DNA from: a virus
Direction: 5' to 3' (one strand)
Virus record (IMG/VR): IMGVR_UViG_3300042731_004037
Location: 98,417 to 162,416 of that record
Length of the DNA stretch: 64,000 bases
The notes beneath the pieces were generated by a model. That model was not told the DNA's origin, did not search any database, and saw only the letters and a program-made list of their open reading frames with translations. The position numbers were made by a program, and so were the translations under genes. Shown here in pieces: positions 10,470-64,000 of this stretch (positions within the stretch are counted from its first letter, which is position 1; every line of letters starts with the position of its first letter).

Positions 10470-10483
10470 GGAGCAGATTTTAA

Positions 10484-16909: not shown

Positions 16910-16929
16910 TATATATGAGAGGTAAGAAA

Positions 16930-17022: not shown

Positions 17023-17036
17023 CAAAAAAGGATCGG
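17015..17036 (+). repeat. 22-base direct repeat, copy 1 (gene-leader repeat)
   Basis: AAAATTAACA, six A in the run, then GGATCGG: identical over 22 bases to 18088-18109. Each copy sits just upstream of a start codon (17043 and 18119) and contains the AAGGA ribosome binding site, so it marks a duplicated translation-initiation region or the breakpoint of an inserted gene. Confidence 0.6.
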
Positions 17037-17042
17037 TAGATT

Positions 17043-18041: not shown

Positions 18042-18087
18042 CATATATTTTTATTAAAAATACGATTTTGTGCAACTGTTATTAGTA

Positions 18088-18109
18088 AAAATTAACAAAA
18101 AAGGATCGG
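18088..18109 (+). repeat. 22-base direct repeat, copy 2 (gene-leader repeat)
   Basis: Identical to 17015-17036 and again placed directly before a start codon (18119), including the AAGGA ribosome binding site. The two copies bracket the gene at 17043-18041 about 1.07 kb apart. This would allow deletion or exchange of that gene by homologous recombination. Confidence 0.6.
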
Positions 18110-18118
18110 AACAAGTAG

Positions 18119-21190: not shown

Positions 21191-21235
21191 TACAATGAAA
21201 TTTGGATTTTTAGAAAAAATTAATGAGGCAGCCAG

Positions 21236-24200
21236 ATGAGCACTTCGTATCCATTAGAATTAGATAGTGATCTAGAAATACCGCGCATTAACCAAAATGT
21301 CAGTGAAATTAGTGGCGATGTTATTAATTCTCTGCGAGATGCGATTTTTATTATTCAAAAAACGGTCGGATTAAATCCACAAGGCAATCGTTCATCTTTT
21401 GTGGATAGAGTTAATGTATCAATAGATCCCAATGGGCGAATAAAACCGTCATCTCTTGAAAATATTGGACTACTAACATTACCTGTTTTAAATAAACACA
21501 TCGGTGCAACCGCTGGTATACAAGAATCAAAATTAGCATTAGATTATGGAACGACATATTTAAAAAATCTTGTCGATTCTATGCGTACTGATCTCAATGG
21601 CATATCTTCCGGTTTGTCTAGCTCAACATCTATGTTAAATATTCACACATTGGGGCGCGGCTATTATCATGATGGGTATAATATAAAAATAAACGTTGGT
21701 AGTAGTATTGGCGTTGCTGGACTTGAAGCTACTACTATAGGAGATGCTATAAACGAATTATCCGGTATTATTATCTCTGGCAACGATACTATAGTACCGC
21801 ATATTAATAGCAACATACCGTCTCAATTTAAACATATTGCATCTGAAATTGGCATTGATACAACCGATTTTGTTAGCATAGACAGAACATCAATAAATGT
21901 GCAAGAAGCATTAGACAGTATGGATGCAAGTGCTGGGGCTCTTGGTGTTGCTCATATTGACGAATTTCATTCGAATGGAATTTTAAAAGAAATTAATTCT
22001 GGCAATTATTATAATTCTAATCGTCGCTTGGTTGACACTATATCTGGGGCCTCTTATACTGAAGGGACTAGTGTTATTAAGATCCCTAATATAACATCGT
22101 TTGCTACTTTAGGGGTAGAAGCTGGCGATATTTTGGAAATTGTCCAACAAAGTGGTATAATTGATAGTGGAACATATCAAATTAGTGCTATTGGCCCATT
22201 AACCAGTTCTAAAACACTTGGTAATTTACCACAATTAGATAATGATGAATTACTTGTGTTTCACATTTTTTCTGAAAGTAGATCCTATGGAGATAATGTT
22301 GTTGTAAACATATACAAACCATCAGCAATTTCTAGCGAATATGCCCCATTAGCTTGTACTTCAATTGGTAATGAAAATATTGTAGATACGATTTCTATTA
22401 TGAATCCTTGCTCTGCCAGAGCTACGAGTATAGGATTTAATGGATCTATTTTGAATTCCGATGGATATGAAATTGCTATTAAAGTGGGTATGGGTAATTC
22501 TCTTTATAGAGAAATAATAATTCCTGGGTTACATCAAGAACGATTGGGGACTGGTCAAGCAGATCCAGTGGATTCTAGCTCTGTAGCAGAAAGAATTAAT
22601 GCCTATGTGAGTGACCCTGATTTAGGGTACCATTTTCCAATTACAGCATTTAGGATAGGAAATGAGTTAGCTATTGCACACAATTGGATTGGTCCAGATT
22701 ACACACTTGAAATAGTTGATGGTTATACTGGTAATTATCCATTAGGATTTGATGCCTATGGTGCTAATATCGTCGATCAGAAGATTTATGGAAATAATAA
22801 TACCAAATATTCAATTAATGGCGTTTCTCTGACCGGATTATCTGACACCTTCGATGGATACGCTAGTATAACTAGCGAATCAAGTACATTTATGTTATGG
22901 AAAAATGGATTACTTGTGAATCCAATCAGATATGGTATTGGGCCCGGGTCGATTTTACATATTACTGGGCACCCAACATTAGATACTAATGGTAGTTATG
23001 TCGTTCTTTCATCTAATTCAACAAGTGTGTCATTATTTAGTAAAGAAAAAATTGATTCTCCTAATAATCCTACAACTTTTAATGTTAGAGTATCATCTTC
23101 TAATATTCCATTAGATATACTAGAAAGTACAGAAACTGATATGGGGCTAGTACAAGTTCTTATTAGTGCTGGTGGGGAGACATTTGTTCATCAAAAATTA
23201 ATCTACGGAACTACACTTGGCTCGGGCGTTCAGATTATAAATATATCTGATTCATTTCCAATTGGCGATGTAATGATATTAGTAACCCTGGACGGTGATT
23301 TTGTAGATTTTAATATTGTAGATGATACTGTCTCTGGAGAAACTGTAAGGATACATGAAAATTTTATAGGTAGTTTTAAATTATATCATCCAAACGGTCT
23401 AGATTATATGCTTTTTAAAATCATTCCAGGAAATATACCAGGGGGATTAGAAATTGCAACTATAAGTGAGTCTATTCCACCAGATGAGGCCTTTTTATTA
23501 GCTACTGTACATTTTGATGGTACCCATTCGATTACAAATATAATAGATAATCGTTTATTTGGTAATATTAGTTCGAATGAAATAAGAGATGACTTTATCG
23601 AGATATTCAGTCAAAGGCCAACATCTGAGTTGCGCTCTAATGGTATTGTACGTGGTTTCGATCTTCTTGATATTCCATATTATGATTCTGTTACTGATAT
23701 GGCAGCTTTACCGTTGCGTGGTGGAATTGCCTATGTCAATGGGGTTCGTTTAGCAATAGAGACTCAAAAAGTTATAGTAAATGTGCAAGATTCAGAAGGA
23801 ATAATATTAAACAATTCTATACGAATAGTTGGAATAAATGATTTTGGATCTATACAAGTATTAAGTGATGAACTTGGTGAAATACTGACTGATGGATATA
23901 ATGCCGATGCAACATTTGGTAAAATATTGCCATTGTATCAAATAACCGTAAATAATGGTAATATTGAAAATGTGGTAGATATTAGAAAATTTACCAACAA
24001 TCTAGATGATAAAATAGATATCATAGTTGATGAAACAAATAATGTAATTGGAAACTTTAGAAGTCTTGAAGGCGCATTGTTGTATGCGAACCATTATCCA
24101 AATAAAGAAAAGTTAATAATACGAATAATAAATCCAGTCTATCCTAAAAATCCATTAGTCGTACCAAATGGTGTTTCTATTATTGGAAATGTACCATTTG

Positions 24201-31302: not shown

Positions 31303-32127
31303 ATGGATAGAAGAAATCTTAATAAGGTCGGTTGCAAAGGATACAATATTGATAACAAAGAAATAGTAAGATTATATTTGGTAGATAATCTTACTATGAA
31401 AGAAATAGGCGAAAAATTCAATATTTCCCGTTGGACCGTGTTAGACAGATTAAGAAAACTTGGTATAAGAAAAAATATGCGCCATTTTGTAAACCATGAT
31501 TCTTTTAATAAATTTACAAAAGAATCATGTTATTGGGCAGGTTTTATAGCGGCAGATGGCAATGTTTCTAAAAACATGATCCATGTTGAATTGCAATATT
31601 CTGATTATAGACATTTAGAAAAACTATGCAGATTTGTAAATCGGGATACAATGTTATGGGAAAGATCTAGATTAAGAGGAATAAAAACATTTAAATATGT
31701 AACTATGTCAATTGTGTCTAATAAAATTGTCAAAGATGTTGCTGAAAAATTTAACATTGTACCAAACAAAACATTTGTTTTACAACCTCCAAATATTCCT
31801 GATAATATGATTAATCATTATATTCGTGGATATATTGATGGTGATGGTTCTATAGGTTGGCACAAACATAGTAATAAACCAAGAATACACATAGTTTCTG
31901 GATCTAAATATATAATAAAATGGCTTAAAAGTATAATTGAAAAAGAAAACATTACTGGTAATCCAAAAATTAAATGCCTTGGAAACAAACACAATTTAGA
32001 ATATTCTGGTCTACAAACTTATTCAATTCTAGATTGGCTGTATGCTGGTTCAACAGAACAAACTCGTTTAGATAGAAAATATGAAAGATATAAAAAATAT
32101 AAATTACAGGAGTGTACCAAGAAATGA
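31303..32127 (+). CDS. LAGLIDADG homing endonuclease with helix-turn-helix N-terminus
   Basis: 274 residues from ATG 31303; its own ribosome site is weak. Residues ~18-55 are a helix-turn-helix (NLTMKEIGEKFNISRWTVLDRLRKLGI). Two LAGLIDADG helices follow: WAGFIAADGN at ~78-87 and YIRGYIDGDGS at ~173-183, each with its catalytic acid. It inserts between sheath and tube genes. The stop TGA (32125-32127) overlaps the ATG (32124) of the tube gene, and the tube gene's AGGAG lies inside this coding sequence, so the insertion has provided or preserved the downstream start region. It is similar in layout to the endonuclease at 1758 but clearly divergent. Confidence 0.9.
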   Translation: MDRRNLNKVGCKGYNIDNKEIVRLYLVDNLTMKEIGEKFNISRWTVLDRLRKLGIRKNMRHFVNHDSFNKFTKESCYWAGFIAADGNVSKNMIHVELQYSDYRHLEKLCRFVNRDTMLWERSRLRGIKTFKYVTMSIVSNKIVKDVAEKFNIVPNKTFVLQPPNIPDNMINHYIRGYIDGDGSIGWHKHSNKPRIHIVSGSKYIIKWLKSIIEKENITGNPKIKCLGNKHNLEYSGLQTYSILDWLYAGSTEQTRLDRKYERYKKYKLQECTKK

Positions 32128-47774: not shown

Positions 47775-48203
47775 ATGTCATTCGATTTGGCACTTATTAA
47801 TGGTGATTTGAAAATTATATCCGATGGTAGTATAAAAACTGTTCAAGACACAGATAAGCTCAGACAAGATATTTTAAAGATATTAATAACATTACTTGGG
47901 TCAAACAGATTTCATCCATGGTATGGATGCGTATTATCAGACAATATAATAGGTAAAAATTTGCCAGATAATATAATTTTAAATGATATACGCACTAGTA
48001 TATTTCAGAGTTTAGATAAATTAAAAAAATTACAACAGCAACAACAAACAACTCAAAAGGTTAGTTTGGCTGAACTTATAAATAGTATAGGAAATATTGA
48101 TGTATATCGAGATCCAAGCGATCCACGACAGATAAAGATAAGGGTTGAGGTATATTCCAGACGATTAACAAAAATAGAAGAAATATTTTCATTAGAATTA
48201 TAA
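47775..48203 (+). CDS. Baseplate wedge protein, gp25-like
   Basis: 142 residues, GGAG before the start and abutting the previous stop. The pattern DLALINGDLKIISDGSIKTVQDTDKLRQDILKILITLLGSNRFHPWYGC is typical of gp25/W-type wedge proteins: a beta hairpin, a helix with KLRQDI, and the HPWYG turn. The C-terminus RIRVEVYSR-type strand ending EEIFSLEL also fits. A Gln-rich insertion (QQQQQTTQ, ~95-102) from a CAA/CAG run is an oddity. This protein joins the sheath's first ring to the wedge and is essential in contractile systems. Confidence 0.85.
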   Translation: MSFDLALINGDLKIISDGSIKTVQDTDKLRQDILKILITLLGSNRFHPWYGCVLSDNIIGKNLPDNIILNDIRTSIFQSLDKLKKLQQQQQTTQKVSLAELINSIGNIDVYRDPSDPRQIKIRVEVYSRRLTKIEEIFSLEL

Positions 48204-48216
48204 TTGGAGACACGCA

Positions 48217-51200
48217 ATGGCTATTTTTAAATCTTTTAACGATTTGGTTATATCAGCTATAGAATATTTGCGACTTGTACAACCTGAGCTAGATACAAAA
48301 CCTGGAACGGTATCGCGTGATGTTTTTGTGGACACACCATCCCAACAAATCGCTAATTTATATTCACAACTTAGAACTATATCAAATTTATCATCAATAT
48401 TTTCTATATCTGGGACAGATCTAAACAAATTGGCATCTAACTATAGTGTCTCTCGCATTAGTGGCGGTAGCGCTAGTGGGACTGTGGTATTTACTACAAA
48501 CAATATGGATGTAGATATACTAATTTCCAGCGGATCTATAGTTACTGCACGTAATGGCGTTAATTTTGCTACCCAGGAAAACGTAATTATGACTGCAACT
48601 AATGCTAATGTGTATAGAGCTACAGCTACCCGTTTACGCGCCGATCTTGAACTTGCTGGTATTACAGATGAATTTGCTGTAGAAATTACTGTTCAATCAC
48701 TAACTGCAGGTACTTCTGGAAATATTGGTAGATTCTCTATCACATCACATAATATAGATTCTATCTCAAATGTAACTAATCTAAATTCGTTCAGTGGAGG
48801 TAGTAATTCTGAGAGTGATGATGAATTTAGATCCCGTATTCTTAGTATTTTTGCTGGCAGTAATACCGGAACATCTCTCGGTTATACAAATGCTGTTGGT
48901 ATTGTTCCTGGTATATTAGATTCAGAAATAGTAGTTCCTGGGGATCCATTATTAATTCGGGATGGCACACAAGTTTCAACAAATAGTGATGGGAATTTGG
49001 TTGTATCTGACCCTGGTAGTGGTGGGAAAGTAGATATATATATTCTCGGTAGTAATTTAGAAAGTCAGATAGATTCATTTATATTTAATGATCAAAGTGG
49101 TAAAAATGATCCAACCGATCCATCCAATGATTACATATTAGGACAAAAAGGGCAAGATACAACACTGAATGCTGCCCAACGCCGGGTTACTTTAATTTCT
49201 TCTAATGATTTACCATATCAACCAATTGATAATATAATTAGCGTTAGTGGCAGTTCTTCGGGTGCTAATTTTGTAGAAAAGTATACTGATGAACAAGGCC
49301 GCGAACATGGTAATTATGAACTTGTAACGGACACGGGAAATTTTAGTGGTAGTCCGTTTGGTTTTGATAAATTACATTGGGTATCAGATTATATTGAATT
49401 AGATAATGAAAACGTTACAAAAGGTGTTTTCAATGGAATAGATTCATTAAATTTTTCGGATGTAGGTGAAATTAGGGACATAACTCAGGATTATTTAGTT
49501 ACTAATGAAAATTCTATTACAAGTACATCTAATAGAAGTTATGTTACATTACGTCATACTCCAATCAGAAATGTTAGTAGGATAGTAAATCTTACAACTG
49601 GAGAAAGATATATTGTTGAATATCAAAACCCGGATGGTGAAGAAGGTGGTTTAAACACTACTGGGAAAATTATGATCAGCGGTAGTACACTTCCAGTTGG
49701 TACTGATATATTGCAAGTAGATTATACATGGGTTAAAAACTTTGATAATGTGTTTGATTTCGATAGCCTAGGTAACTATAATGAGTCTCGCCGGGTTCAA
49801 GATTCTGTTGATTGGGGCTTTGGTAATTTAGTAAAGAACGAGCCGTCAACCGTTGTAGATGATGGCTATGGTAATTTGGCTATTACAGTTACACACCCAA
49901 TATTCAAAGTATTATCAGTAAATTCATTCGATACTAGTATTACTAATATTAGTAATGGTACGGTAACTACAAATGATACAGTAACAAATGTTGTCGACAT
50001 AAGACGAATATCAGATAATGCAGAATTGTTTAATACAGATGCTAGAGGTGGAACATTATCTGGCACATCAGCCATTGTGTTGCCAACCGATTCAATTGCA
50101 GAAGATGGTGATACAGTAAAGGTTAGATTCAATGCATCTGACATGTTTGCTCCAGATGGGTATAATGAAGGTACATTTACTGGTACAACGATAATATTAC
50201 CAGAAAATGTGACATCGTTCGGCACCAGTGTTTTGGTTAATTACATAGCAAATGTATTAACTCTAGTTCCAGAAGATGAATTAAGTAATTTACCGTTCAC
50301 TAAAAATAATAATAAATTTCTAGTAGCCGGAGAAGTGAGTGGGGAACAGCCAACATCCAATTTAATTGATGATGATAATAATTTCACTAGCAATCTACGC
50401 CGAGCCGGATCCAACATTAAAGTGGCTGTTTCATCAATTCCGTCAGAAGGAATAATAACTATATCAGGTACAACTGTACATAAAGTAACGGACGCATTAG
50501 TAGTTGTAACATCTGGATCCGGATACGAAATAGATTTGCAGTCAGCAATTAAGACAGATCTAAATACAACCTCAATATCGTCAAATATTCAGATTATGAA
50601 GTTAGTTAGTCTAGAAAGAGTACTACTAGATAATTCTGGCCAAGTAGATTATATAGATAATAATTATGATATAGTAAATTATTATCTTAAAAATAATTCG
50701 TATGATTTAGATGTGTCACTAGAAAATTCATCTATCAGTAAGACGAAAGTAGTCTTACCACAAACATCCGAAAATGTTGAAGCTAGATTGAATACTGGAG
50801 ATATTGTTCGAGCAACATTCTATTATATTTATACTAATAATTATGAACAATTATATTTTTCAAAAGATGGAACACATATTACTGATAAATATTTTATAGA
50901 TATAAGCAGAGTATCACTTGCATCAGGATTCAAAGATTCTTCTGGCAGTATATCTGGAAATATAACTGTGTCAAATTTTAATCAACCTGTTAATAATACA
51001 GTATATAATGTAAGCTATGATTATACCGCACCTAAGGAAAATGAACGTATAACAGTTACATTTAATCATAATACCTTGGCAAATGATGCTACCAATGCTA
51101 TTGAAAATGTCAGGCCTATTACTGCTGACGTCTTAGTGAAAATTGCTGAGCCGGTTATTATTAATGTATATTCAAAAATTGTGTTATTATCAGAATACCA

Positions 51201-51447
51201 AACTCAGTCATTAACAGTGGTACAAGATGCTATAGAAGCTGTAACAAGTTTTCTGACAGCTAGTAGTCTTGGAACAACAGTGGATGCGTCTGATGTTATT
51301 AATAAATTGTATTCAGTTAATGGAATTGATCGCGTAAGAATTATTAATTTTAGTGTCGGAAACAGTGGAAATTTGTTAAGTGTTACTGCAGAAAAAAATC
51401 AGTATTTAGATGCTGGAACAGTTACTATAGAGGTAGAGGAACGATAA
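48217..51447 (+). CDS. Baseplate J-like wedge protein (gp6/gp47 family)
   Basis: 1076 residues, GGAG before ATG 48217. The first ~250 residues show the baseplate-J core: TKPGTVSRDVFVDTPSQQIANLYSQL, GTDLNKLASNYSVSRISGGSASGTVVF, and SDDEFRSRILSIFAGSNTGTSLGYTNAV. The last ~100 residues match the C-terminal J domain (PVIINVYSKIVLL... VNGIDRVRIINFSV). Between them about 700 residues of beta-rich inserts with DGYG-type turns make it more than twice the size of P2 gpJ (~300) and larger than T4 gp6 (~660). It forms the wedge dimers that ring the hub and drive sheath contraction. Confidence 0.85.
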   Translation: MAIFKSFNDLVISAIEYLRLVQPELDTKPGTVSRDVFVDTPSQQIANLYSQLRTISNLSSIFSISGTDLNKLASNYSVSRISGGSASGTVVFTTNNMDVDILISSGSIVTARNGVNFATQENVIMTATNANVYRATATRLRADLELAGITDEFAVEITVQSLTAGTSGNIGRFSITSHNIDSISNVTNLNSFSGGSNSESDDEFRSRILSIFAGSNTGTSLGYTNAVGIVPGILDSEIVVPGDPLLIRDGTQVSTNSDGNLVVSDPGSGGKVDIYILGSNLESQIDSFIFNDQSGKNDPTDPSNDYILGQKGQDTTLNAAQRRVTLISSNDLPYQPIDNIISVSGSSSGANFVEKYTDEQGREHGNYELVTDTGNFSGSPFGFDKLHWVSDYIELDNENVTKGVFNGIDSLNFSDVGEIRDITQDYLVTNENSITSTSNRSYVTLRHTPIRNVSRIVNLTTGERYIVEYQNPDGEEGGLNTTGKIMISGSTLPVGTDILQVDYTWVKNFDNVFDFDSLGNYNESRRVQDSVDWGFGNLVKNEPSTVVDDGYGNLAITVTHPIFKVLSVNSFDTSITNISNGTVTTNDTVTNVVDIRRISDNAELFNTDARGGTLSGTSAIVLPTDSIAEDGDTVKVRFNASDMFAPDGYNEGTFTGTTIILPENVTSFGTSVLVNYIANVLTLVPEDELSNLPFTKNNNKFLVAGEVSGEQPTSNLIDDDNNFTSNLRRAGSNIKVAVSSIPSEGIITISGTTVHKVTDALVVVTSGSGYEIDLQSAIKTDLNTTSISSNIQIMKLVSLERVLLDNSGQVDYIDNNYDIVNYYLKNNSYDLDVSLENSSISKTKVVLPQTSENVEARLNTGDIVRATFYYIYTNNYEQLYFSKDGTHITDKYFIDISRVSLASGFKDSSGSISGNITVSNFNQPVNNTVYNVSYDYTAPKENERITVTFNHNTLANDATNAIENVRPITADVLVKIAEPVIINVYSKIVLLSEYQTQSLTVVQDAIEAVTSFLTASSLGTTVDASDVINKLYSVNGIDRVRIINFSVGNSGNLLSVTAEKNQYLDAGTVTIEVEER

Positions 51448-51448
51448 T

Positions 51449-54400
51449 ATGGCTTTTGCTTATGTGCGTACACTTGAACTGACGGTATCAAGTATACAGA
51501 TACTATTTAACGATGATGTAGACACAAATATCGGTGTCAATAATATATCTATTGTGTCTGGAATTGATAGCATTAACAACCCAGAGATAAAATCTGTTAG
51601 CGTTGAAAATGATATAGTAAAAATAACATTTCGACCATTGTTCCCAAACGTTCAATATAAAATAACATTTAGTAGTACCAATACTACTCCTTTTCAAACA
51701 GTTAATGGAGAAATAATTACTGAGGATGGTAACAGAAATTCATTCTTTTTTAATAGTCCTGGGGAAGAACAAAATGATATTAGAGATGCAATGTTTAATG
51801 ATGTTTCTACTTTGTATGAGACAGGAGAAACAACGCTAGTTAGAGATTTAATTTCATCTACTGCTGACGAATTACAAAAAGCAAGAGATTCTATAGAAAC
51901 TGTACGTTCAGGTAATTATTTATCTGTTCTAGTGACAGATGAATTAAAAGAAAGAGATGATGGTCCAATAGACAAATTAGATAATGGTGGCGCCTTTGAA
52001 ATACTTCGTGTTGCTAGAACGCCTACTGGGTCCAACAAAATCACATATATTGAGTTTAATGCGAATAGATCTCAATCTTTTAAAATTAGGAGTTCTACAA
52101 TAGTAAACTCAATAGTGTCGACCGTTACATCCGATCCCATAAGTTTACAGTCTATTGATGTTATAAATGAAAAAATTACTGATGATATAGATATTACAAA
52201 TCATTTTAATGGACTCAATATCAAGGTATCAAATTTACCAGTTATTCAGGTTATTTCGGTTTCCCTATTTAGAGATGGAGAATATATTGAGTATGATATA
52301 GAAAGATTTGGGTATACATTGAAAAACAATAGGTATGATACAAATTCTGCATCTAGTAATGTAAATTTTGATGATAATGAAATAGAACTATCATTAAGCT
52401 CAGTTACTGGATCGGAAGGCGGATTTTTAATCCCAAGATCTGGGGATGAAATATATATATCATATATATATAAAAAATTAGGACGCGATGTGGACACAGA
52501 ATCTATTTTATTTACACGAATGAAAAATGTTGTACGTGAAGCTACGCCTCCAGTTATAAACAAATTTTCGCTTAACCATGCTCCAATAGTTACACAATTG
52601 GATGAAATAGCTTCCACAAATTCTGTAGAATTTCTCAACACACAGTCATCTAATGGGAAGCTTGCATTTACAACTGTACACCCAGCCTTCAAAAAAGAAT
52701 TACCTTACGATATAACTAGATTGCCATCAAAAGTTGGGGAATATACAATAAACCATAACACTGGTGAAGTGTATGTATATGGTGAAGATGAACATAATTC
52801 TGGTACTGGTGAAAACGCTCCTGTTGCTAACTATACATATCGTGAAATATTTTCCGAAGATTTGGATTATACATTTAATAGTGATAGAGATGAAATAGCA
52901 ATAAGATCTACTAGAAATATTTCTGGAATTGAAGCTAAGATAACATTTAGTTATGAAGATACATTTGCTGAAGGAACAGATTATAATGTATTATCTCATG
53001 TTGAGGTTCTTAATGAAAGGGTTAATAATAAATTAATTGACTCTTTTAAAATTGAAACTAACCATTTCCCCGTAACAGATGTCTTTAGAATTTTAAACGA
53101 AACAACTGGTGAGTTATATACTTTAGATCGCTTTAATAACACATCTGTTTCTTTTTCCGGTAGGAATGCCCCAAGACAACGTGATGTAACTAGGGAACGT
53201 GTTACTTTTTCTCGGGTTCCACAAGAAATATTATTGGTGTCCGATGAACTAACAAATTCATCAAGTATTAGAATTTTTAAAATAGATTTATCCAACAATG
53301 GAATATCCGATAGTCAAAATAGATTTGTTGGTGCCAATTTTAATACATCAGTGATATTTTCCAGAACAGATTTGTTTATTAGAGAATTTTTCTACGAAAA
53401 CAGATTATACACAAATGTTAATACAAATATTAATAAATTACAGAAAATTGGAGACTATATAATTGATTATACAAATGGAATTGTATATGTCGCTGTTACA
53501 TCTGATGAAGGAACCGATCTTGGTGATATAAGTTATCAGTATTCTTGTGTCGATACCGTAAATGATCATATTTTGAATGTTAACAATATATATCGGAGTA
53601 AGAGTTCTTCAGAAATCAATGTTAATACATACAATATAGGAAATATTACCGATACAACTGCAAATATTGTTGGATTAGAACAAGTAGGGGAACGGTTTAT
53701 AAATAATAATTCAACACGCACATTATTGATTGGTACACACCAAAGTGGCGAAGATGGAATAACATTAAATGGATCCTATTCTTTTGTATCTAATAGTGGT
53801 GTATTTACGTCAGATGATATAGGAAGGATATTAATAGTTGGGTCATCATCTCAAACACCAGTACAAGAAGTAGAAATAACAAATATAATTAACGACCATG
53901 AAATAACTGTATCTCAAAGTTTTAATTATACTAAAAACGGCAGAATATGGACGATAGTAGACATATCTTCTAATTCACCAAAAACTATTACTCTTGGACA
54001 TGATATTGTATCAGTAAAAAATATTTATACCGTAACACAATTAGGCACATTGCCAGCAGAAGATTTAGATGGATATTTTGATATTAATCGTGATTCAATT
54101 GATGGTAATGTTATTACACTTGGGAATAGTAATCCATTGAAAGTTGGCGATGCGATTATTGTAGATTACAATCCAGGAAATTTATTTATAGATTATAGAT
54201 ATTTACAAGATGAGCTAATAATATCGTATGAATATGGCGCTAATAGTTTAGACTGGAGTATTAGTGATTCATTAAATAATGGTGATGAATACTATATAAC
54301 CTACAAATATGGTGCTCTTCGAGAGTCACTATTATCAAACTTTGGATCACTTACACAAATTGACCAACTTACAACATTTTCACCTAATTTAGATAGAGAA

Positions 54401-57400
54401 ATATATAGGTCAATTGTTGGAGGTGCTCTTCAATCATTTATTAAAGGACCAACAATTCCGTCATTAGAGAGGTTAGTCGAATCTTTTACTGATGTAACTC
54501 CAAACATAAATGAAGCTGCCTTTGATAATTGGGTTCTTGGAAGGGATAATCTGCATTTGCGCAGTCCTATTTATGATAGTAATCAGACATTCGATCTTGG
54601 TAAATTTGATAATGGTGCTATTATTTCGGATAACAATATTCAAGTTCCAGCTTTAGCTCATCTTAGATTAGATGAAGGTACGTTGGAAACTTGGATACGG
54701 CCAAATTGGAAGGGGCTTTCAAATGATGCTAGTCTAACATTCTCGAATTTACTTATAGATGGGTATGAAGATTTATCTAGTATATATATTGGTTTTTCTG
54801 GTGCAAATCCAGTTGAAATGCCATTTACTTTATCTATAAACAATAGTGACATTTCTGTATCTGGAGAACCTTCTAATATTAATAATGATACTGGGTTTTT
54901 TATTTGGTTTGATGAATTCACAGATTTATGGAATGTTCGTTGGCGTGAAAATGCTAATAATATAGTAGAATTTACTGGATCAATTTCAACTGATGGAGAG
55001 TTTTTTAATATCGCAAAGCCAACCGGCCCAGATGGATATGAAATAAATGAAATTACAGATGTTATAACGAGCACAACTAATGGCATTAGTTTTACAGCTT
55101 TTATAGATGATGTAGATGATATAGGCGGATCTTCTCCATATTATGTAGATGGTATATCTTTTTCATCTGGAAAATTACATTATATTTTTGATATTGCTGA
55201 AGATTCAGCAACAAACAGAATGTCTTTATTCAAAGATGGAACAGGGTACTTAAATTTTCAGGTATTTGATAATAGACTTAAATATGGTAAACACGCCGGC
55301 TTGTACAATATTTCAAAAAATATTAGAGATTGGCAAGCTAACCTGCTACATCACATAGCAATCTCTTGGAAATTTAATTCTTCAGATGAACAAGATGAAA
55401 TACATATGTTTGTCGATGGAGAAGAAGTCACAAATCTCTTTAAATATGGTGGAAACCCGAAAGCTAACTCATCTTATGATTTTGGTAATATTGCCGAAGA
55501 GATTATTACGATGTCATCTGTTAACCCAATTGTCGGCGGAATTGATGGTTCAACGGTTTCAGGATCTAAGATATTTTATTCACCATCATCAGATTTCACA
55601 GAAATTGGAATACAGATTGGTCATCAATTATATTTATTAGATGAAACCGCAGATGGGATAGGAGAACCCAATTTTGGTGCACCATACACAATAACAGGTG
55701 TTGGAACTACCACATTAACATTAAATAGAGCATTTACACTAACACTCGGCAATTTACAATATAGTATTAATTCGTTAACATCTACTGTGTCGACACCAGT
55801 AAATATACAAGATTTTGTGGTAATATCGGTTGATTCAGACGGTAATGAAACAGAATTGTATGGCGTTGATGCAGAATATCCAGATTATTCTGTCAGAAGA
55901 GGTGGAAATAATACACACGTAATTACAATAAATAATGGAGTCTCTACTGGAGACTCAGTAATAATTCGTCCATTAGGGTTAGTATTACAGAGATGTAAAG
56001 AAAAAGTATATGTATATGATGGCGGTTATGATGAGATAAGACTGAATTCGTCTGCACCAGTATCACTTGGTGATGTTAAAATAACTGCTATAATATTAGA
56101 TAGAACTTTGATTAAAGCTGGTGGTGGATTTGGTTTAGTTGGTACTATAATTGGGGCACAGCTTGTAACAATGTTGCAGTCCTACTTTGATAATGTCTGT
56201 CAACCAAGTAATCAATCATCTGGTAGGAAACTGTCTGTTAAACTTTCCGGTGACAATTTTAACTATAATATTCCTGGAAATCAAGTAATCATATCAGGCA
56301 AGACATTTTCGGGAGCTGTTAAAGAAACAATACTTTTTACAGAAAGCACCACAATAATTACTGATGAATATTGGAAAAGTATTGATTCAATAACTGTATC
56401 TGTAATTCCAATTGATGCGTCACAATATGTTGGGTCAATAGAAATTAGAGAATACAACCCTATAACTATATCCGAGAATAATGGTGATTTTGCAGAGGTT
56501 GTTGAGTATTCTAATGGTATATTCAGATTAGAAACATATGGAACAGCTGGACAACCATTCATACTTAATGGATGTATGTACGAAGTTGATTATCCTTCTA
56601 GGTTACGAATCAGGTTAGATGCTATTCCAGATACTTTTTATATTGGTAGCGATTACACAGGTAGTAATAACTTTGATGGTATTATTGATGAATTTAAAGT
56701 AATAGATATAATGTCTGATGATACAAGACCAGGAGAGATTGCTAATTCTAACGTTCCATCTGTAACAACTAGCTATAATTTATCACAGTCCCAAGATAAT
56801 AATGAAAATACACTATTACTAATGCATTTTGGCGATGAAGTGGCCGATGATTCTGTGTTTAGAGACAGATACAATAGCGGTTTTGAATCAGCTTCTAGTG
56901 TGAATGATTCGTTTGGGACTTCAATCAAGTTTGTTCAAGATAAACCATATATAATAAATAATGCTAATTATATTTTCAATTCTGAAGAAGGAACTGTTGA
57001 ATTTTGGTTAAGTCCGTTAGATGATTCACGTGGTGACCCAAATTTTCATTATTATATAGACATGTCCGCTGTTGTAGAAGAAGAGATAGAATCTATCTCA
57101 TCGTTAAATGTTATTACTAATCAAAGAATAAGAGAAGTGGAAAGCATTAGATTAATAACAGATATATATAATACTGGAACAAATTATTATACTGGTGGAT
57201 ATGTATCAAATGTAGATTATAAGACTATAACTTTAGGAATACCATTACCAGCACAAAATGTAGCATTAAAAATTACATATATTCCATTAAATAGTCAGGG
57301 AGACAGAGTTAGTTTGTTTAGGGATCCAAATGGTCGTATATGTTTTTTTGTGAAAGCATCTGGTATTGAACATATAATTTCTGTCCCAATGGCATGGAAA

Positions 57401-58009
57401 CGACACACATGGCATAGAATAATGGCAATGTGGAAAATGAATAGTGAAAATAACCAAGATAGATTAAGATTATTTGTTGATGGTAGTGAGAGAGGAACAA
57501 TAAAATATGGCACTGGCCTTATTTATGGCACTGGAATTATATGGGGACAAGCTGAGGTTAGACCCGGTGTTAATAAATTTTTGGTAGATAATATAGATTT
57601 AACTGACACGTTTTCTAAGATTTATATAGGCACAGATGTATATGGATTAAAGGGAGCGAGAGCCCGTATAGATAATATGAGATTTTCTGAACTTCAGAGA
57701 TTACAATCCATAAAAAGGACAACTACTGATACTATAGATATTAATTATATACAAAATCATGAATTTGCTTCACCAGTTGTAGAAGATATATATACTACAG
57801 GAATATATAATTTTGATAATACAGAGAACGATATAGAATATCTTGCTACAATTATAAATTCAGAAAGGGGTATTTTTAGATTTTCTGTTGAAGTAGTAGA
57901 TTCATTTGACAAGATTATAGGGAATACAGATTTAGAAGAACTATTAGAAGAACTTATTAATGTTATTAAACCTTCACATTGTGAGAGTATTATCTCTTAT
58001 AAAAAGTGA
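51449..58009 (+). CDS. Giant baseplate/tail protein with Ig-like and two LamG-like domains
   Basis: 2186 residues, starting two bases after the J-like gene (RBS GAGGTAGAGGA in its 3' end). Residues ~1-95 resemble an SbsA-type Ig domain, and ~105-170 carry helices of the kind that follow J in gpI-like wedge proteins. Long beta-rich segments follow. Two concanavalin/laminin-G-like domains are evident: EGTLETWIRPNW ... HHIAISWKF ... IHMFVDGEEV (~1065-1330) and EGTVEFWLSPL ... WHRIMAMWKM ... LRLFVDGSERG (~1840-2080). LamG-like folds commonly bind glycans or proteins, so this is probably a wedge-attached adhesin. It is far longer than any classic wedge protein such as T4 gp7 (~1030). Confidence 0.75.
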   Translation: MAFAYVRTLELTVSSIQILFNDDVDTNIGVNNISIVSGIDSINNPEIKSVSVENDIVKITFRPLFPNVQYKITFSSTNTTPFQTVNGEIITEDGNRNSFFFNSPGEEQNDIRDAMFNDVSTLYETGETTLVRDLISSTADELQKARDSIETVRSGNYLSVLVTDELKERDDGPIDKLDNGGAFEILRVARTPTGSNKITYIEFNANRSQSFKIRSSTIVNSIVSTVTSDPISLQSIDVINEKITDDIDITNHFNGLNIKVSNLPVIQVISVSLFRDGEYIEYDIERFGYTLKNNRYDTNSASSNVNFDDNEIELSLSSVTGSEGGFLIPRSGDEIYISYIYKKLGRDVDTESILFTRMKNVVREATPPVINKFSLNHAPIVTQLDEIASTNSVEFLNTQSSNGKLAFTTVHPAFKKELPYDITRLPSKVGEYTINHNTGEVYVYGEDEHNSGTGENAPVANYTYREIFSEDLDYTFNSDRDEIAIRSTRNISGIEAKITFSYEDTFAEGTDYNVLSHVEVLNERVNNKLIDSFKIETNHFPVTDVFRILNETTGELYTLDRFNNTSVSFSGRNAPRQRDVTRERVTFSRVPQEILLVSDELTNSSSIRIFKIDLSNNGISDSQNRFVGANFNTSVIFSRTDLFIREFFYENRLYTNVNTNINKLQKIGDYIIDYTNGIVYVAVTSDEGTDLGDISYQYSCVDTVNDHILNVNNIYRSKSSSEINVNTYNIGNITDTTANIVGLEQVGERFINNNSTRTLLIGTHQSGEDGITLNGSYSFVSNSGVFTSDDIGRILIVGSSSQTPVQEVEITNIINDHEITVSQSFNYTKNGRIWTIVDISSNSPKTITLGHDIVSVKNIYTVTQLGTLPAEDLDGYFDINRDSIDGNVITLGNSNPLKVGDAIIVDYNPGNLFIDYRYLQDELIISYEYGANSLDWSISDSLNNGDEYYITYKYGALRESLLSNFGSLTQIDQLTTFSPNLDREIYRSIVGGALQSFIKGPTIPSLERLVESFTDVTPNINEAAFDNWVLGRDNLHLRSPIYDSNQTFDLGKFDNGAIISDNNIQVPALAHLRLDEGTLETWIRPNWKGLSNDASLTFSNLLIDGYEDLSSIYIGFSGANPVEMPFTLSINNSDISVSGEPSNINNDTGFFIWFDEFTDLWNVRWRENANNIVEFTGSISTDGEFFNIAKPTGPDGYEINEITDVITSTTNGISFTAFIDDVDDIGGSSPYYVDGISFSSGKLHYIFDIAEDSATNRMSLFKDGTGYLNFQVFDNRLKYGKHAGLYNISKNIRDWQANLLHHIAISWKFNSSDEQDEIHMFVDGEEVTNLFKYGGNPKANSSYDFGNIAEEIITMSSVNPIVGGIDGSTVSGSKIFYSPSSDFTEIGIQIGHQLYLLDETADGIGEPNFGAPYTITGVGTTTLTLNRAFTLTLGNLQYSINSLTSTVSTPVNIQDFVVISVDSDGNETELYGVDAEYPDYSVRRGGNNTHVITINNGVSTGDSVIIRPLGLVLQRCKEKVYVYDGGYDEIRLNSSAPVSLGDVKITAIILDRTLIKAGGGFGLVGTIIGAQLVTMLQSYFDNVCQPSNQSSGRKLSVKLSGDNFNYNIPGNQVIISGKTFSGAVKETILFTESTTIITDEYWKSIDSITVSVIPIDASQYVGSIEIREYNPITISENNGDFAEVVEYSNGIFRLETYGTAGQPFILNGCMYEVDYPSRLRIRLDAIPDTFYIGSDYTGSNNFDGIIDEFKVIDIMSDDTRPGEIANSNVPSVTTSYNLSQSQDNNENTLLLMHFGDEVADDSVFRDRYNSGFESASSVNDSFGTSIKFVQDKPYIINNANYIFNSEEGTVEFWLSPLDDSRGDPNFHYYIDMSAVVEEEIESISSLNVITNQRIREVESIRLITDIYNTGTNYYTGGYVSNVDYKTITLGIPLPAQNVALKITYIPLNSQGDRVSLFRDPNGRICFFVKASGIEHIISVPMAWKRHTWHRIMAMWKMNSENNQDRLRLFVDGSERGTIKYGTGLIYGTGIIWGQAEVRPGVNKFLVDNIDLTDTFSKIYIGTDVYGLKGARARIDNMRFSELQRLQSIKRTTTDTIDINYIQNHEFASPVVEDIYTTGIYNFDNTENDIEYLATIINSERGIFRFSVEVVDSFDKIIGNTDLEELLEELINVIKPSHCESIISYKK

Positions 58010-58102
58010 TTTCCCTTTTTGTGTGATCATAGATCTTTATTACGGCAAAGTTAGGTTTTGTCAACAAAAAAAATGACAGATTGTAAAAAATAGGAGAATA
58101 AA

Positions 58103-60928
58103 ATGACTAGATCTATACTTCCATATGTTAATTATTATGATGGGCAAGAAATTAATGAGACAGATATGGATGTTGAACAGGCTGCATGGCATGATAGTCT
58201 TGCCAATAATACTGATTTTCAAGCTGGCAGTGGGATCGAACAAGAGTTTGCGGTCCAAAGAGTTTTATTTGACACAAACGATGTGCCCTCTTCAGTACAA
58301 AGCTTGATTAATAATCAAAATTTTGACGGTGAGCCGATTTATCCGGTTGATACATTTGGTCTCACTGTATATGAACAGCCATCAGATAGTTCCTCTGGTA
58401 ATCAATTAGAAGTCGAATTATCTAGTTCGTCGCTAGATGGAACTCCAACGACAAAAGTGTTTTTATTTGGACAAACATTTGGAGGCGGTTTTATTCATGA
58501 AGTTATTGTGTTTGAACAAAATGAATCACAGCTAACTAGACAATATTTCACAAATATAGTCGCTATAATGGCACAGGATTTTAGGGGCAATCAAAATACA
58601 ACTATTGATGGTATAAAAAGTCGAAATTACAGTGGTCGGTTACGAATATTAGAATCATTACCAATGACACTGGCCAGAGATCCTATTATGGCTGAACAAT
58701 CTGTAGAACCAAATATGAATTATGTTAATTTTAAACCAGCAACAGCTTCAAAAACATTGGATATTTTATTAGATGAAATTGCTGATACAGAGTCATTAGA
58801 TGCTGATGACTTAAAAATTAATGTTACAGCTACAACGACACGTGGTCTTTCTGCAAATGATAGCACTGGGCTAATTATTGGGCAAAAATTTAAGGCGACT
58901 ACAAATAATATACAAAAAATATCTATTCTATTATCAATTGAAGAAAACACTTTAGCATTACCAGGACATGAATTTGATTGGTCTGGAGATATTGTTGTAG
59001 GTGTAAGAGCTTTACAAACTACGACAACGTGTCCCACTGATACGATTCCTAATACATCGATAGAGTTTGATCCGCAACCATCTCCTATTGCAGAGGTATC
59101 CTTTGATCAAGATGAGTTGGCTGAGTTAGGTATTGCATTAACAGATTCTCCTCAGATAGTAGATTTTATATTTACCCAGTCATTATTAGCGAATCCTAAT
59201 ATTGAACCAAATATTGAAGTGGGTAAATATTATATAATCACTATACGTCGTTCTGGTAATATTAGTGTTGGAAATGTTATTTTACAAGAAGCGGCCAATA
59301 CAAATGCTGCACCAACTGATACTGATGAGATGAGAATGTCAATATTTTCTCAAAATAAGTGGGTTGATGTACCTGAAAGTGACTTGTGGTTTAAAGTTTA
59401 TACTAATGCGGTAAGAATAACTGATGGGACAGCCTTTGATAGTGGTGTTCGAATAACATCTCCACGTGTTTCTAAGAATACAACAACTAATTTGGATGAG
59501 TCATATATAGAAGGGCATCACAGTCTGATAGATGTCTCGTCAACAGCAAACAATTATGTCGTGTTACAAAAATCTGTAGAATATACAGATAGTGTTCCTC
59601 ATCCATCAACAGGTAATTTAGTATTCACCCGTATCAAAGATGTGCCAGATGTATCCATTATATCAGAAACAGATTTGACAACATTAATTGATGCAGGTAA
59701 TGAACCTATTATAATAGGATCTGTAGTAGACACAAATCCAGTAGACAATCCATCTATTAGTGGTTATACTGAATTTCCTGGTTTAGTTAGATCCAACACA
59801 TTTACAATTATACAGCCTAATTCAGATATAACACTGAATAATCTTATCGGATCAATCTTAGTTCCAAATGTTAATGAACCGGATTTAAAATATCGTATTA
59901 TAAAAACAGAAATATTTACTGATGCTTATGGCGATGTTAATGGGGATGGTTTAATAGACCTTAACGATGTGGCTCGAGCCCAAGCATTAGATGGATATGG
60001 GAAAGACCTAGAATCTGGTTCACTGGCTTCAATAGATCAAAGAAATGCTATAGTGTCTAGTACAGTTACGATCGAAGAAATTTTAAGGGCCGATGTAACT
60101 GACAATGGATATATAAACATTTTTGATCCGCAGATGATTCAACAAAATATTGCTCTTGGTACCGGATTTACGGCTGGAAGTACTTTTACTCGTGCAGTAC
60201 TAACAGTAGAGAATTTGACCAATCCACTTACTACTACTCCTAATATACTATCATTGGATAGTTCATTTAATGCTGTGCCATTTAATTCTATTGGATTTAG
60301 GATCGACTTTGTTCCACTTTGGTTTTCATATAATTTAGAACTGACCGATTTGAGAAGATTTATTCCAAAAACATTTACTCAATTAGAATCTAGTGATATA
60401 ACATCAGATATTCCAACGGGTGGTAAAAACACGTCATTTATTCCAGGAGATGTATTGTTAGGTGGAGATATATTATCAGTAGATGGAACAACATATCCAA
60501 TTGACTTAGAAATTAATAGTATTGTCATTGATCTTCCGGAGGGATCAACGCAAGGAGAGGTAGATGTATTTAGTAATTTCGTTAAAAATCAAATGTATTT
60601 TTATGATGGTACGCTAGTAACTAGTGGAGCTCTTGATGCGAATCAGGTAAAAATAATTCCTAGTGTGCAATCATTTGTTAAGGATTCAGATGGTTATGAT
60701 TTTCAATCGGTTGACGGGTATGAGGCAATTGAAACAACTGTTGCCGTATTATATACACAGAATTCTGGAATATTAAGAATACGAGCAAATAATATTAGGA
60801 ATATTGTCACTCGTCCAGAATTGCGGACTAAAATTGTTCTCACAGTGTATTTGAAAAAAGCTGGGTTTATAAATGACGAAGTTTCGGTAACTTCTTCTAG
60901 ACTTCAAGAATTATTAACACTAGTGTAA
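58103..60928 (+). CDS. Tail fibre-like protein with a dockerin-like calcium-binding pair
   Basis: 941 residues, AGGAG before ATG 58103. The N-terminus (SILPYVNYYDGQEINETDMDVEQ) is typical of proteins that start phage fibre operons after the J/I wedge genes. The middle is beta-rich. At residues ~610-623 GDVNGDGLIDLNDV and at ~663-675 ADVTDNGYINIFD form two EF-hand-like loops in the style of type I dockerin repeats: D611, N613, D615, D619, D622 and D664, D667, N672, D675 as likely calcium ligands. They are ~53 residues apart rather than the usual ~35 because of an insert containing a DGYG turn. The final ~250 residues are a beta-rich distal domain. The 93-base gap before the gene is AT-rich, with only a weak promoter-like pair. 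Confidence 0.75.
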   Translation: MTRSILPYVNYYDGQEINETDMDVEQAAWHDSLANNTDFQAGSGIEQEFAVQRVLFDTNDVPSSVQSLINNQNFDGEPIYPVDTFGLTVYEQPSDSSSGNQLEVELSSSSLDGTPTTKVFLFGQTFGGGFIHEVIVFEQNESQLTRQYFTNIVAIMAQDFRGNQNTTIDGIKSRNYSGRLRILESLPMTLARDPIMAEQSVEPNMNYVNFKPATASKTLDILLDEIADTESLDADDLKINVTATTTRGLSANDSTGLIIGQKFKATTNNIQKISILLSIEENTLALPGHEFDWSGDIVVGVRALQTTTTCPTDTIPNTSIEFDPQPSPIAEVSFDQDELAELGIALTDSPQIVDFIFTQSLLANPNIEPNIEVGKYYIITIRRSGNISVGNVILQEAANTNAAPTDTDEMRMSIFSQNKWVDVPESDLWFKVYTNAVRITDGTAFDSGVRITSPRVSKNTTTNLDESYIEGHHSLIDVSSTANNYVVLQKSVEYTDSVPHPSTGNLVFTRIKDVPDVSIISETDLTTLIDAGNEPIIIGSVVDTNPVDNPSISGYTEFPGLVRSNTFTIIQPNSDITLNNLIGSILVPNVNEPDLKYRIIKTEIFTDAYGDVNGDGLIDLNDVARAQALDGYGKDLESGSLASIDQRNAIVSSTVTIEEILRADVTDNGYINIFDPQMIQQNIALGTGFTAGSTFTRAVLTVENLTNPLTTTPNILSLDSSFNAVPFNSIGFRIDFVPLWFSYNLELTDLRRFIPKTFTQLESSDITSDIPTGGKNTSFIPGDVLLGGDILSVDGTTYPIDLEINSIVIDLPEGSTQGEVDVFSNFVKNQMYFYDGTLVTSGALDANQVKIIPSVQSFVKDSDGYDFQSVDGYEAIETTVAVLYTQNSGILRIRANNIRNIVTRPELRTKIVLTVYLKKAGFINDEVSVTSSRLQELLTLV

Positions 60929-61006: not shown

Positions 61007-62206
61007 ATGAATATAAGAACTTATACATGGATCCAAGGAATGTTATCGTGGGCCTATGTTTCTGCAAGATTGTGTCAGGCTCTAGAAGAATTAGGGCACA
61101 ATGTGTATACGATATCTACTAATGGTATTCGTAATAGTGACCCATATTTTACTGAAAAAAAGATGATAGAGTCTACAATAGCTCTTCAAAAATTCGGGAT
61201 TGGACGGCGGCCAATAGATATGGATTTTTGTTATACTGTACCCTCTAATTTTCCAAAGCGATTCCTCACTAATTCCAAACACAAGTGCGCAATTTATAAT
61301 TATGAAACACATTATTGGGATCCAAAATGGGCCCAATTCTATTATATAGTGGATTATTATTTTCCTAGCTCAAATTTCTCAGCTGAAATATTTCATATTA
61401 ATAGAATACCACAAGAAAAAATATATGTTATACCGCATGGTGTTGACACAAGAGTATTTAATCCAAATATTTCAAAGATTAAATTACGTACAAGAAAAAA
61501 ATATAAGTTTGTTTCGGTAGTTGCGCCACATTATAGAAAAAATATTCCAGCACTTCTAGATGCGTACTGCAGAGCATTTACTAAAAAAGATGATGTTTGT
61601 CTTGTTTTGAAGACAAAAGTATACAGACATTCGGATGGAATTTATCATATGCAAAACAATCCAAAAGGTCGTAAGGCATTTGAAATAATTTTGGGAGATG
61701 TGTTTAGAGAATTAGTAAAAAAACATGGTAAAAATATTCCTGAAATTGAATTATTAGATGGACATGTTGAAAATGTAGCTAGTATATATAATTCATGTGA
61801 TTGTCATATCAGCACCACTGGGGCTGAAGGATTTTTTATGCCAGGAATTGAATCGTTCAGTTGTGGGCTACTAAATATAGTTCCAAATTATTCTGGACAT
61901 TTAGATTATATGGATAAAAAAAATTCTCTATTGATAAATACAAAATTGCGGCCGGCTAAAAATGTAGAACAATATTGGGCATTTGATCCTAGAAGTCAGA
62001 TAGGGGAAGTTGATATAAACCATACTGCTGAATTAATGAAAAAAGCTTATAAAGAACACAATGTATTAATGAAAAAATTTAAACCTAACATGGATAAAAT
62101 GGTCAGAAAATTTAGTTGGGAATACGCAGCTCAACTTATGATAGATGCTGTTGAAGGAAAATCTGAACATTATATTCCTGGTACATATAATTGGTGGCCG
62201 AAATGA
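61007..62206 (+). CDS. Glycosyltransferase, GT-B fold (family 4-like)
   Basis: 399 residues, AAGGAGAG before ATG 61007. The N-terminal half starts with a Rossmann-like strand and a loop that would lie over the acceptor (WIQGMLSWAYVSARLCQALEELGH). The C-terminal half has IYVIPHGVDTRVFNPN, KFVSVVAPHYRKNIPALLDAY and the donor-binding motif with E274 and E282 (GAEGFFMPGIES, E-x7-E) characteristic of retaining GT4 enzymes. It would transfer a sugar from a nucleotide sugar to a cell-surface, DNA or virion acceptor. Its gene overlaps the next glycosyltransferase by four bases (ATGA), so the two are coupled and likely act in one pathway. Confidence 0.85.
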   Translation: MNIRTYTWIQGMLSWAYVSARLCQALEELGHNVYTISTNGIRNSDPYFTEKKMIESTIALQKFGIGRRPIDMDFCYTVPSNFPKRFLTNSKHKCAIYNYETHYWDPKWAQFYYIVDYYFPSSNFSAEIFHINRIPQEKIYVIPHGVDTRVFNPNISKIKLRTRKKYKFVSVVAPHYRKNIPALLDAYCRAFTKKDDVCLVLKTKVYRHSDGIYHMQNNPKGRKAFEIILGDVFRELVKKHGKNIPEIELLDGHVENVASIYNSCDCHISTTGAEGFFMPGIESFSCGLLNIVPNYSGHLDYMDKKNSLLINTKLRPAKNVEQYWAFDPRSQIGEVDINHTAELMKKAYKEHNVLMKKFKPNMDKMVRKFSWEYAAQLMIDAVEGKSEHYIPGTYNWWPK

Positions 62207-62949
62207 AAAAAGTAAGTATAGTAATTCCTGTTTATATTATAGATCATAGATTTTTTTTAATTACAAAATATTGTATAGATTATATAATGACAAATATATA
62301 CAATATAGATGTCGAATTAATCATTGTTGATGATTGTTCTCCCAATAAAAAATTGGTTGAAATATTAAAAAAGAAATGCGACAAACATGTAAAATGGATT
62401 CATAATAGGGAAAATGTAGGATTTGCGCATTCTATAAACACTGGTATAGCGAATGCAAAATATGATTTAATATTGCTGTTAAACAATGATATAACATTTA
62501 CTAAAAATGGTTGGCTTGAAAGAATGATTGATAGTATAGAAAATGGTGGAAATGATGTTGTATCAGCAGATGTAGGTGTTATTAGTAAGAGAAATTGGCA
62601 GTATATTCCTAAGTCCAATAGAGAAACTGTTAAAAATAAAATATTTAAGTATCCAGTCGGATGGTGTATGATGGTTAAAAGGAGTGTGTTTGAACAAGTT
62701 GGACTTTTCCCGACCAATTTTGGCAGAGGTTATTGGGAAGATACCATGTATGCTATTATATTGGATAAGCTCGGATACAAGATGGGAGCCATTGTAGATT
62801 TAGGAATACATCATGAAGAGCATAAAACGTTTAAAGCTATAGGTGCCAATTTGTCAAAATTATATGAAAAAAATAGAGAAATATTTTTGAAGATTCAAAA
62901 TGGTCAAGAAGATTGCCAATTGCCGAAAATAGAAGATTATTTGATCTAA
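62203..62949 (+). CDS. Glycosyltransferase family 2-like (GT-A fold)
   Basis: 248 residues from ATG 62203, overlapping the previous stop by ATGA; a TTG at 62191 in frame is less likely. The chain opens with KVSIVIPVY, then LIIVDDCSPN (D43, D44 for nucleotide binding), NREN-GFAHSINTGI, and LLLNNDITF (N95, D96, the DxD-like metal site). Later GWCMMVKRSVFEQVGLFP and GRGYWEDTMYAIIL (ED catalytic base) match rhamnosyl/galactosyl-transferase-like GT2 enzymes. It has no membrane segment. Together with the GT4-like partner it would add at least two sugars to an acceptor during infection. Confidence 0.85.
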   Translation: MKKVSIVIPVYIIDHRFFLITKYCIDYIMTNIYNIDVELIIVDDCSPNKKLVEILKKKCDKHVKWIHNRENVGFAHSINTGIANAKYDLILLLNNDITFTKNGWLERMIDSIENGGNDVVSADVGVISKRNWQYIPKSNRETVKNKIFKYPVGWCMMVKRSVFEQVGLFPTNFGRGYWEDTMYAIILDKLGYKMGAIVDLGIHHEEHKTFKAIGANLSKLYEKNREIFLKIQNGQEDCQLPKIEDYLI

Positions 62950-63362: not shown

Positions 63363-64000
63363 ATGATCAAGTCTACCAAGTTATCCACAAAATTTACTAA
63401 TAAAATTAAATTGGATAATTTAAACTTGTTCATCGACGAATATCGTCGGGTAGTTTCCCAATTCATTGATATCGTTTGGCTTCAACCTAATATCCCAAAA
63501 CTATTACCTAAAACCACAACTTCCCAAATCACAACCTGGCTTTCAGCCAGGGCTGTTCAAGCCGCTGCCAAACAAGCTTCCGGTATAGTGCGAGGTACTC
63601 GTAGGAGACAACAAAAACGTTTGTATGTTTATAGCAAGTTATTAGCAGAAAATAAAACCAAACAGGCACGAAAACTAAAATCTATAATAGACGAAACCAA
63701 TGTTTCTAAACCTAACATTAACCAAGTAGAACCAGAATTAGATTCACGCTTTATTAAACAAGACTGGCAGAATCAAACATCGTTTGATGGTATAATTACC
63801 ATAACTTCATTAGGAAACAAATTAAAAATTCCTATTCCAGTAAAAGCTACTAAACATTTTAATAAACTAGCCGCCGCAGGCGGCCAGCTAAAACCCGGCC
63901 TTAGGCTTTCCAAGAAAACTATAACCCTGGTGTTTGATTTACCAGAAGTCAAACCTAAACAAACAGGACAACCATTAGGATTAGACATAGGGGTATTAAA
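63363..64000 (+). CDS. tnpB: TnpB-like (IS605 OrfB/Cas12 ancestor) nuclease, N-terminal part, runs off the window
   Basis: ATG 63363 with AAGGAA ahead; the frame is open for 212 codons to the window edge with no stop. The N-terminus is helical and basic, followed by a Lys/Arg-rich stretch (GIVRGTRRRQQKRLYVY, ~75-91), then strands KLKIPIPVKATKHF and KTITLVFDLPE before GQPLGLDIGVLK. The last holds D208 in the RuvC-I motif LGLDIG, the first catalytic acid of TnpB-type nucleases. RuvC-II, the zinc ribbon and RuvC-III would lie beyond the window. Base composition appears richer in G and C than the phage genes (many GCC, ACC and CCC codons), which suggests recent transfer. TnpB uses a guide RNA from the element's right end to cut DNA. 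Whether a TnpA transposase or the RNA is present cannot be seen. Confidence 0.75.
   Translation, partial: MIKSTKLSTKFTNKIKLDNLNLFIDEYRRVVSQFIDIVWLQPNIPKLLPKTTTSQITTWLSARAVQAAAKQASGIVRGTRRRQQKRLYVYSKLLAENKTKQARKLKSIIDETNVSKPNINQVEPELDSRFIKQDWQNQTSFDGIITITSLGNKLKIPIPVKATKHFNKLAAAGGQLKPGLRLSKKTITLVFDLPEVKPKQTGQPLGLDIGVL

Follow-up and report, generated by a model that had tools for sequence, protein, structure and literature searches.

Dockerins are one partner in a protein-protein coupling that ranks among the tightest, and they are found in bacterial cellulosomes and on surface proteins in other microbes. In type I dockerins, the connector between the two calcium loops is compact, at about 20 residues, a length that is typical and not strictly defining. 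Positions 10 and 11 of the loops are the recognition positions, and isolated dockerins fold upon calcium binding. The clostridial type I dockerins (PF00404; Xyn10B, 2ccl/1ohz; ScaB, 4uyp; Clo1313_0689, 8x39) have a pair of D-x-[ND]-x-D-G-x-[ILV]-[DN]-x-x-D loops with helices, and the phage module described here has the same loop pair and helices. Non-cellulosomal dockerins are likewise present on extracellular proteins of ANME archaea and their sulfate-reducing partners (PMC9012536, PMC10553843).

In phages, dockerins are already known as annotation and are not new in that sense. "Dockerin type 1" labels have been given to other metagenomic phage proteins, and dockerins are merely mentioned in passing for gene 40 of VvAW1 (PMC3558961) and Gp02 of HSE2 (PMC5967307). 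Our literature search found no study of dockerins in phage tails or jumbo phages. Here we describe a dockerin-fold module inside a tail-region protein of a virus and of its relatives in IMG/VR.

Results

The dockerin-bearing gene lies in a contractile-tail block

The window, by which we mean the whole 64,000-nucleotide stretch of DNA analyzed, forms the right-hand end of a virus record of 162,416 bases. It contains a contractile-tail block with a sheath, baseplate proteins, a LamG-like 2186-aa protein, the 941-aa protein that carries the module, and glycosyltransferases. The genes of interest are as follows (window coordinates).

28719-31286: tail sheath, upstream of the dockerin-bearing gene
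47775-48203: baseplate protein (baseplate wedge), upstream of the dockerin-bearing gene
48217..51447, + strand: BaseplateJ-like protein, a conserved neighbour (PF04865, E 3.6e-21; phrog_6, baseplate wedge subunit)
51449..58009, + strand: 2186-aa protein with concanavalin/LamG-like domains, the direct upstream neighbour (PF13385, E 5.2e-12)
58103..60928, + strand: 941-aa tail/baseplate-region protein (ORF), second gene after BaseplateJ, with more than 70 homologues in IMG/VR
61007..62949, + strand: two glycosyltransferase-like genes, directly downstream (weak PF13439 and PF13692; PF00535, E 1.1e-23)

The 941-aa gene is located within the contractile-tail block, with the sheath, wedge, and BaseplateJ genes upstream of it. 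Gene order around it is maintained among relatives. We found the 2186-aa LamG-like gene 5' of the dockerin-bearing gene at every locus with enough flank, and both glycosyltransferase-like genes keep their position 3' of the tail block in most relatives. Several glycosyltransferases also occur in a newly described lineage of large phages, the subject of the moraphage paper (PMC12619734), which may or may not be the group seen here. Elsewhere in the window, an endonuclease gene, possibly for a homing endonuclease, sits within the structural block (31303-32127; phrog_4645, E 4.6e-45), and an ORF that runs off the end of the record (63363-63998) looks by eye like an IS605-type TnpB; Pfam gave no match to this ORF fragment.

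Structural comparison indicated that residues 194-437 of the 941-aa protein form a beta-sandwich domain shared with the baseplate of Staphylococcus phage phi812 (9eui chain Q) and the central-fibre chains of mycobacteriophage Douge (8zdq) at Z 13-14, a likeness that covers a separate domain and says nothing on the dockerin region. The same residues match the lectin-like domain of Cwp84. These matches support a baseplate or tail-tip location for the 941-aa protein, which is presumably a component of virions, and the dockerin module possibly has a glycan-binding domain as its neighbour. PHROGs gave no usable annotation for the dockerin-bearing protein. When we ran tblastn with the window protein and three distant members against 50,697 phage records, we found no homologue in any isolate, and none was found in plasmids. 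A dockerin-only query gave one weak match, to an unannotated fecal phage record.

Two calcium loops are conserved across divergent relatives

The module and its parts map to the following positions.

59924..60178, + strand: predicted dockerin-fold module, residues 608-692 (Dockerin_1 match, AlphaFold, structural match to dockerins 4uyp, 8x39, and 2ccl)
59933..59968, + strand: calcium loop 1, DVNGDGLIDLND, residues 611-622 (D1 and D12 in 68/68; D5 in 64/68, Asn in 4)
59969..60091, + strand: enlarged connector, residues 623-663, with helix 1 and two extra helices (predicted helices; loop spacing)
60092..60127, + strand: calcium loop 2, DVTDNGYINIFD, residues 664-675 (D12 in 68/68; D1 in 65/68, Asn in 3)

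The predicted ligands at loop positions 1, 3, 5, 9, and 12 of the window protein are D, N, D, D, and D in loop 1 and D, T, N, N, and D in loop 2, which gives the module the two loops of a type I dockerin. The middle stretch, KDLESGSLASID, was tried as a third, degenerate loop and rejected since its final Asp is not conserved in L007.

A search for relatives with the window protein alone found nothing. We reached them through the neighbouring BaseplateJ protein, which led to L007, a contig on which the genes run in the same order and the loops read DVNNDGTIDSDD and DVTDDGIIDITD. Alignment queries from there returned 8, 18, and then 88 related stretches, and 80 of the last set were kept, on contigs of up to 472,749 bases. 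We then assembled a conservation set of 68 non-redundant, readable proteins that cover the dockerin region, with L048 left out.

Both loops were present in the alignment in all 68 members, including homologues down to about 30% identity. Positions 1 and 12 in loop 1 and position 12 in loop 2 were Asp without exception (68/68), and positions 3, 5, and 9 of the loops were nearly always D, N, S, or T. Only 27 columns of the whole protein never vary, and D611, D622, and D675 are among them. The members fall into four groups: one with a loop spacing of 53, one with a spacing of 46 and proteins of about 1000 aa, one with a spacing of 46 and proteins mostly of about 1500 aa, and one with spacings of 137-181. 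Because identity between these groups averages only 24-45%, the conservation is not one sequence counted repeatedly. The earlier note had proposed two near-type-I dockerin calcium loops in this gene; the loops at 59933-60127, where the note had placed them, bear this out, and their conservation among the relatives was decisive.

Each record has one dockerin, always in the same gene and at a fixed internal site, and we found no duplication or relocation. Identity within subgroups, for the dockerin versus the rest of the protein, was 0.73 versus 0.63-0.72, 0.63 versus 0.50-0.58, 0.60 versus 0.50-0.59, and 0.46 versus 0.45-0.56. As these values are similar, the dockerin is neither hypervariable nor a recent graft.

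A few loci deserve separate mention. L048 (7601-8290) has a frameshift just before the module, with loop 1 kept and the loop 2 ligands lost (DVLDVGLVTTAS), and in L013/L047 the gene is broken up between two frames but has an intact module. These frame breaks could be assembly errors or signs of decaying genes. One copy, L039 (JAJRUL010000238.1), comes from a contig of 4.3 kb that was binned with a genome of Candidatus Zixiibacteriota. As a hint of the host, this bin is weak at best, and the contig may be mis-binned virus DNA.

Profile scores and the predicted fold match dockerins

We scanned the window protein with Pfam. In hmmscan, Dockerin_1 matched residues 609-683 over profile positions 1-56 of 57 with 17.7 bits (E 0.0041), which falls below the curated cut-off of 22.9 bits for PF00404. 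A genome-level search gave this site, counted together with its frame neighbours, 23.4 bits, just above the cut-off. Homologues scored up to 45.4 bits, others reaching 40.4 and 36.2, all above the curated cut-off; L052 is among the strongest matches. In addition, a profile built from 46 family segments matched solved dockerins, with the best E values being 2.9e-11 for the Clo1313_0689 double dockerin and 1.9e-8 for a cellulosomal GH48 dockerin. Thus, the profile search suggested by the earlier note gave a marginal hit for the window itself and clear hits for its relatives.

We modelled the protein with AlphaFold. The full-length model (17 sequences) had a pLDDT of 69.7 and a pTM of 0.60, and because it is only moderately confident, the relation of the module to the neighbouring domains is uncertain. 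A model of residues 560-752 (52 sequences) had a mean pLDDT of 85.7, with the module mostly at about 92-95 and the connector at 71-74. Helices are predicted at residues 620-628, 644-651, 657-663, and 674-685, and strands at 597-608 and 694-704 directly flank the module. In this model the two loop-helix units are paired, in line with the paired arrangement expected from the earlier note.

VIA-align of the module model returned 25 dockerins at Z 6.0-9.3 and all other structures at 4.3 or below. The best match was 4uyp_B, with a Z of 9.3 over 67 residues. Foldseek with the single-domain model gave modest E values (best, 0.017), yet its top 17 matches were all dockerins. We rest the fold assignment on the VIA-align Z-scores and the family-profile search and not on the Foldseek E values. 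Judged by sequence profile and predicted fold, the module is a genuine dockerin-fold domain.

We also considered whether DxDxDG-type loops could resemble a dockerin by chance, with no real domain present. The ligand conservation in 68 members, the scores of relatives of up to 45.4 bits, and the confidently predicted dockerin fold led us to reject this as highly improbable, even though the window's own Pfam score is under the curated cut-off and DG-rich motifs are common in this block of proteins, in which DGY is enriched.

We found that the tripeptide DGY is strongly enriched in the large tail-type proteins of the window (7764-26305 and 48217-60928) and also in L064, L066, L090, and L104. Compared with the numbers expected from dipeptide frequencies, we counted 38 versus 7.0 in window ORFs of at least 250 aa, 26 versus 5.3 in L104, and 17 versus 4.3 in L064. 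Neither the sheath nor most of the core proteins contain DGY. Since many synonymous codon combinations encode it, the target of selection appears to be the peptide. In the 941-aa protein, DGY occurs at residues 863-865 and 871-873, within a low-confidence loop (858-878) where distant relatives have DGYxxDGY. The tripeptide may signal modification or processing, and genes for glycosyltransferases are found right beside these proteins' genes.

The connector between the loops is long and accepts insertions

In the window protein, 75 residues are stretched over 56 profile positions. The earlier note had pointed to an enlarged spacing between the repeats, and we found this to be real and general: across the 68 members, loop-to-loop spacing is 46 residues in 38, 53 in 8 (the window's clade), and 137-181 in 22. 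The last subgroup comprises 22 loci after duplicate removal (L080, L088-L098, L100, L102-L104, L106, L107, L111-L113, L115, and L116), and its members carry about 90-135 extra residues between helix 1 and loop 2. By eye, this inserted stretch is probably beta-rich, and it amounts to a domain of some 110 residues. A Pfam scan of two members gave no match within the insert. The connector is presumably an outward-facing, permissive site that accepts up to a whole domain.

The module lacks the compact connector of about 20 residues. Because the connector length is unusual and cohesin binding is only putative, we filed the module as a dockerin-fold variant and not as a standard type I dockerin.

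Cohesin binding and calcium switching are less probable roles

The earlier note had read the module as a dockerin-type domain of paired calcium loops in a phage tail protein, which might attach an enzyme or adhesin through a cohesin partner. The first part holds, as a paired-loop domain in the tail/baseplate block; attachment through a cohesin found no support. We found no match to Cohesin (PF00963) in 21 viral records, namely the window's own (G000), 8 relatives, and 12 further large relatives; many of these exceed 300 kb, the records may be fragments, and the profile may miss diverged cohesins. The module is also internal, single-site, and single-copy, and its rate of change is close to that of the remaining protein.

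If it is a true dockerin, the module would bind a cohesin-type beta-sandwich, located either on a virion protein, such as an accessory fibre or enzyme, or on the host surface, where a cohesin would serve as the receptor contact. In predicted fold and in profile, it is like the dockerins that bind cohesins. Surface cohesins occur in non-cellulolytic microbes, for example ANME archaea and their bacterial partners (PMC9012536, PMC10553843), and a role in adhesion would fit a module that adjoins a lectin/CBM-like domain in the tail. The failure to match Cohesin in the 21 records speaks against this role and is weak evidence given cohesin divergence. In both loops, the recognition positions 10 and 11 differ freely from one subgroup to another and also inside subgroups, and the module, which is internal, was never duplicated or moved. 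We consider cohesin binding unlikely.

Less probable still is a calcium-dependent switch, the other role offered by the earlier note, in which gain or loss of calcium would shift the conformation of the tail protein and trigger contraction or receptor engagement. Strictly conserved ligands, the calcium-dependent folding of isolated dockerins, and the location of the gene in the baseplate region are consistent with a switch, but nothing in them distinguishes it from a permanent structural site. Almost every ligand set appears to be complete, in agreement with binding that is tight and constitutive.

A structural joint is the favoured role

Because the module occurs once in each record, at a single internal site flanked by strands, and evolves at about the pace of its surroundings, it has the appearance of a fixed component of the protein. 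The ligand positions, invariant across four divergent subgroups, also argue for a structural joint. Among the structural, cohesin-docking, and calcium-switch readings, we favour the structural one, with a probability of about 0.62: the module would serve as a built-in, calcium-stabilised structural joint of the tail protein. The data show the sequence, its conservation, the fixed internal position, and the gene neighbourhood directly, and the fold is a prediction. We infer the structural role, as we do calcium binding, presence in the virion, and a single origin.

Such a joint could work as follows. An ancestral tail protein probably acquired, once, a dockerin-fold domain made of two paired units, each a 12-residue calcium loop and the helix after it, and would have retained it since then as an integral part. 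The module most likely folds when it binds two calcium ions, either in tail assembly or once outside the host cell. The beta-strands on either side of it (597-608 and 694-704) probably belong to one beta-domain. Once folded, the module would set how the lectin/CBM-like domain before it is oriented to the C-terminal domains, or it would touch an adjacent tail subunit. Its connector probably points outward and would tolerate insertions up to the size of a whole domain.

Discussion

If the module is only a calcium-stabilised joint, it shows structural reuse of the dockerin fold, in a form whose connector has room for whole domains. Docking of a partner, if it occurs, would represent a new assembly principle in virions and a dockerin-type system outside cellulosomes. 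A speculative and rather doubtful extension is that widespread uncultivated large contractile-tailed phages use a dockerin as a core virion part, as a calcium-locked docking joint to a baseplate partner that is not a cohesin or is a strongly diverged cohesin-like protein. The module offers an easy way to find these phages by sequence, and it predicts a calcium need of their tails.

What is new here is that the module is conserved in a tail protein across a broad group of uncultured large phages, that its connector accepts a domain, and that a cohesin is undetected. ANME archaea and their partners have cohesins in their genomes (PMC9012536, PMC10553843), whereas none was found in the phage records here. 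Unlike the clostridial dockerins, the phage module is internal between beta-strands of a tail protein, with no cohesin found in the record and no link to an enzyme, and its loop spacing is 46, 53, or 137-181 residues, the connector having additional helices or an inserted domain. The predicted fold of the module nevertheless superposes on the clostridial dockerins over 60-67 residues with an rmsd of 2.0-2.5. A further likeness is to A0A6J5RS54 (UniProt/BFVD), a longer protein (1332 aa) of an uncultured Caudovirales phage with the automatic name "Dockerin domain-containing protein," which Foldseek matched with an E of 1.1e-71 at 24% identity over most of the protein, the dockerin region included.
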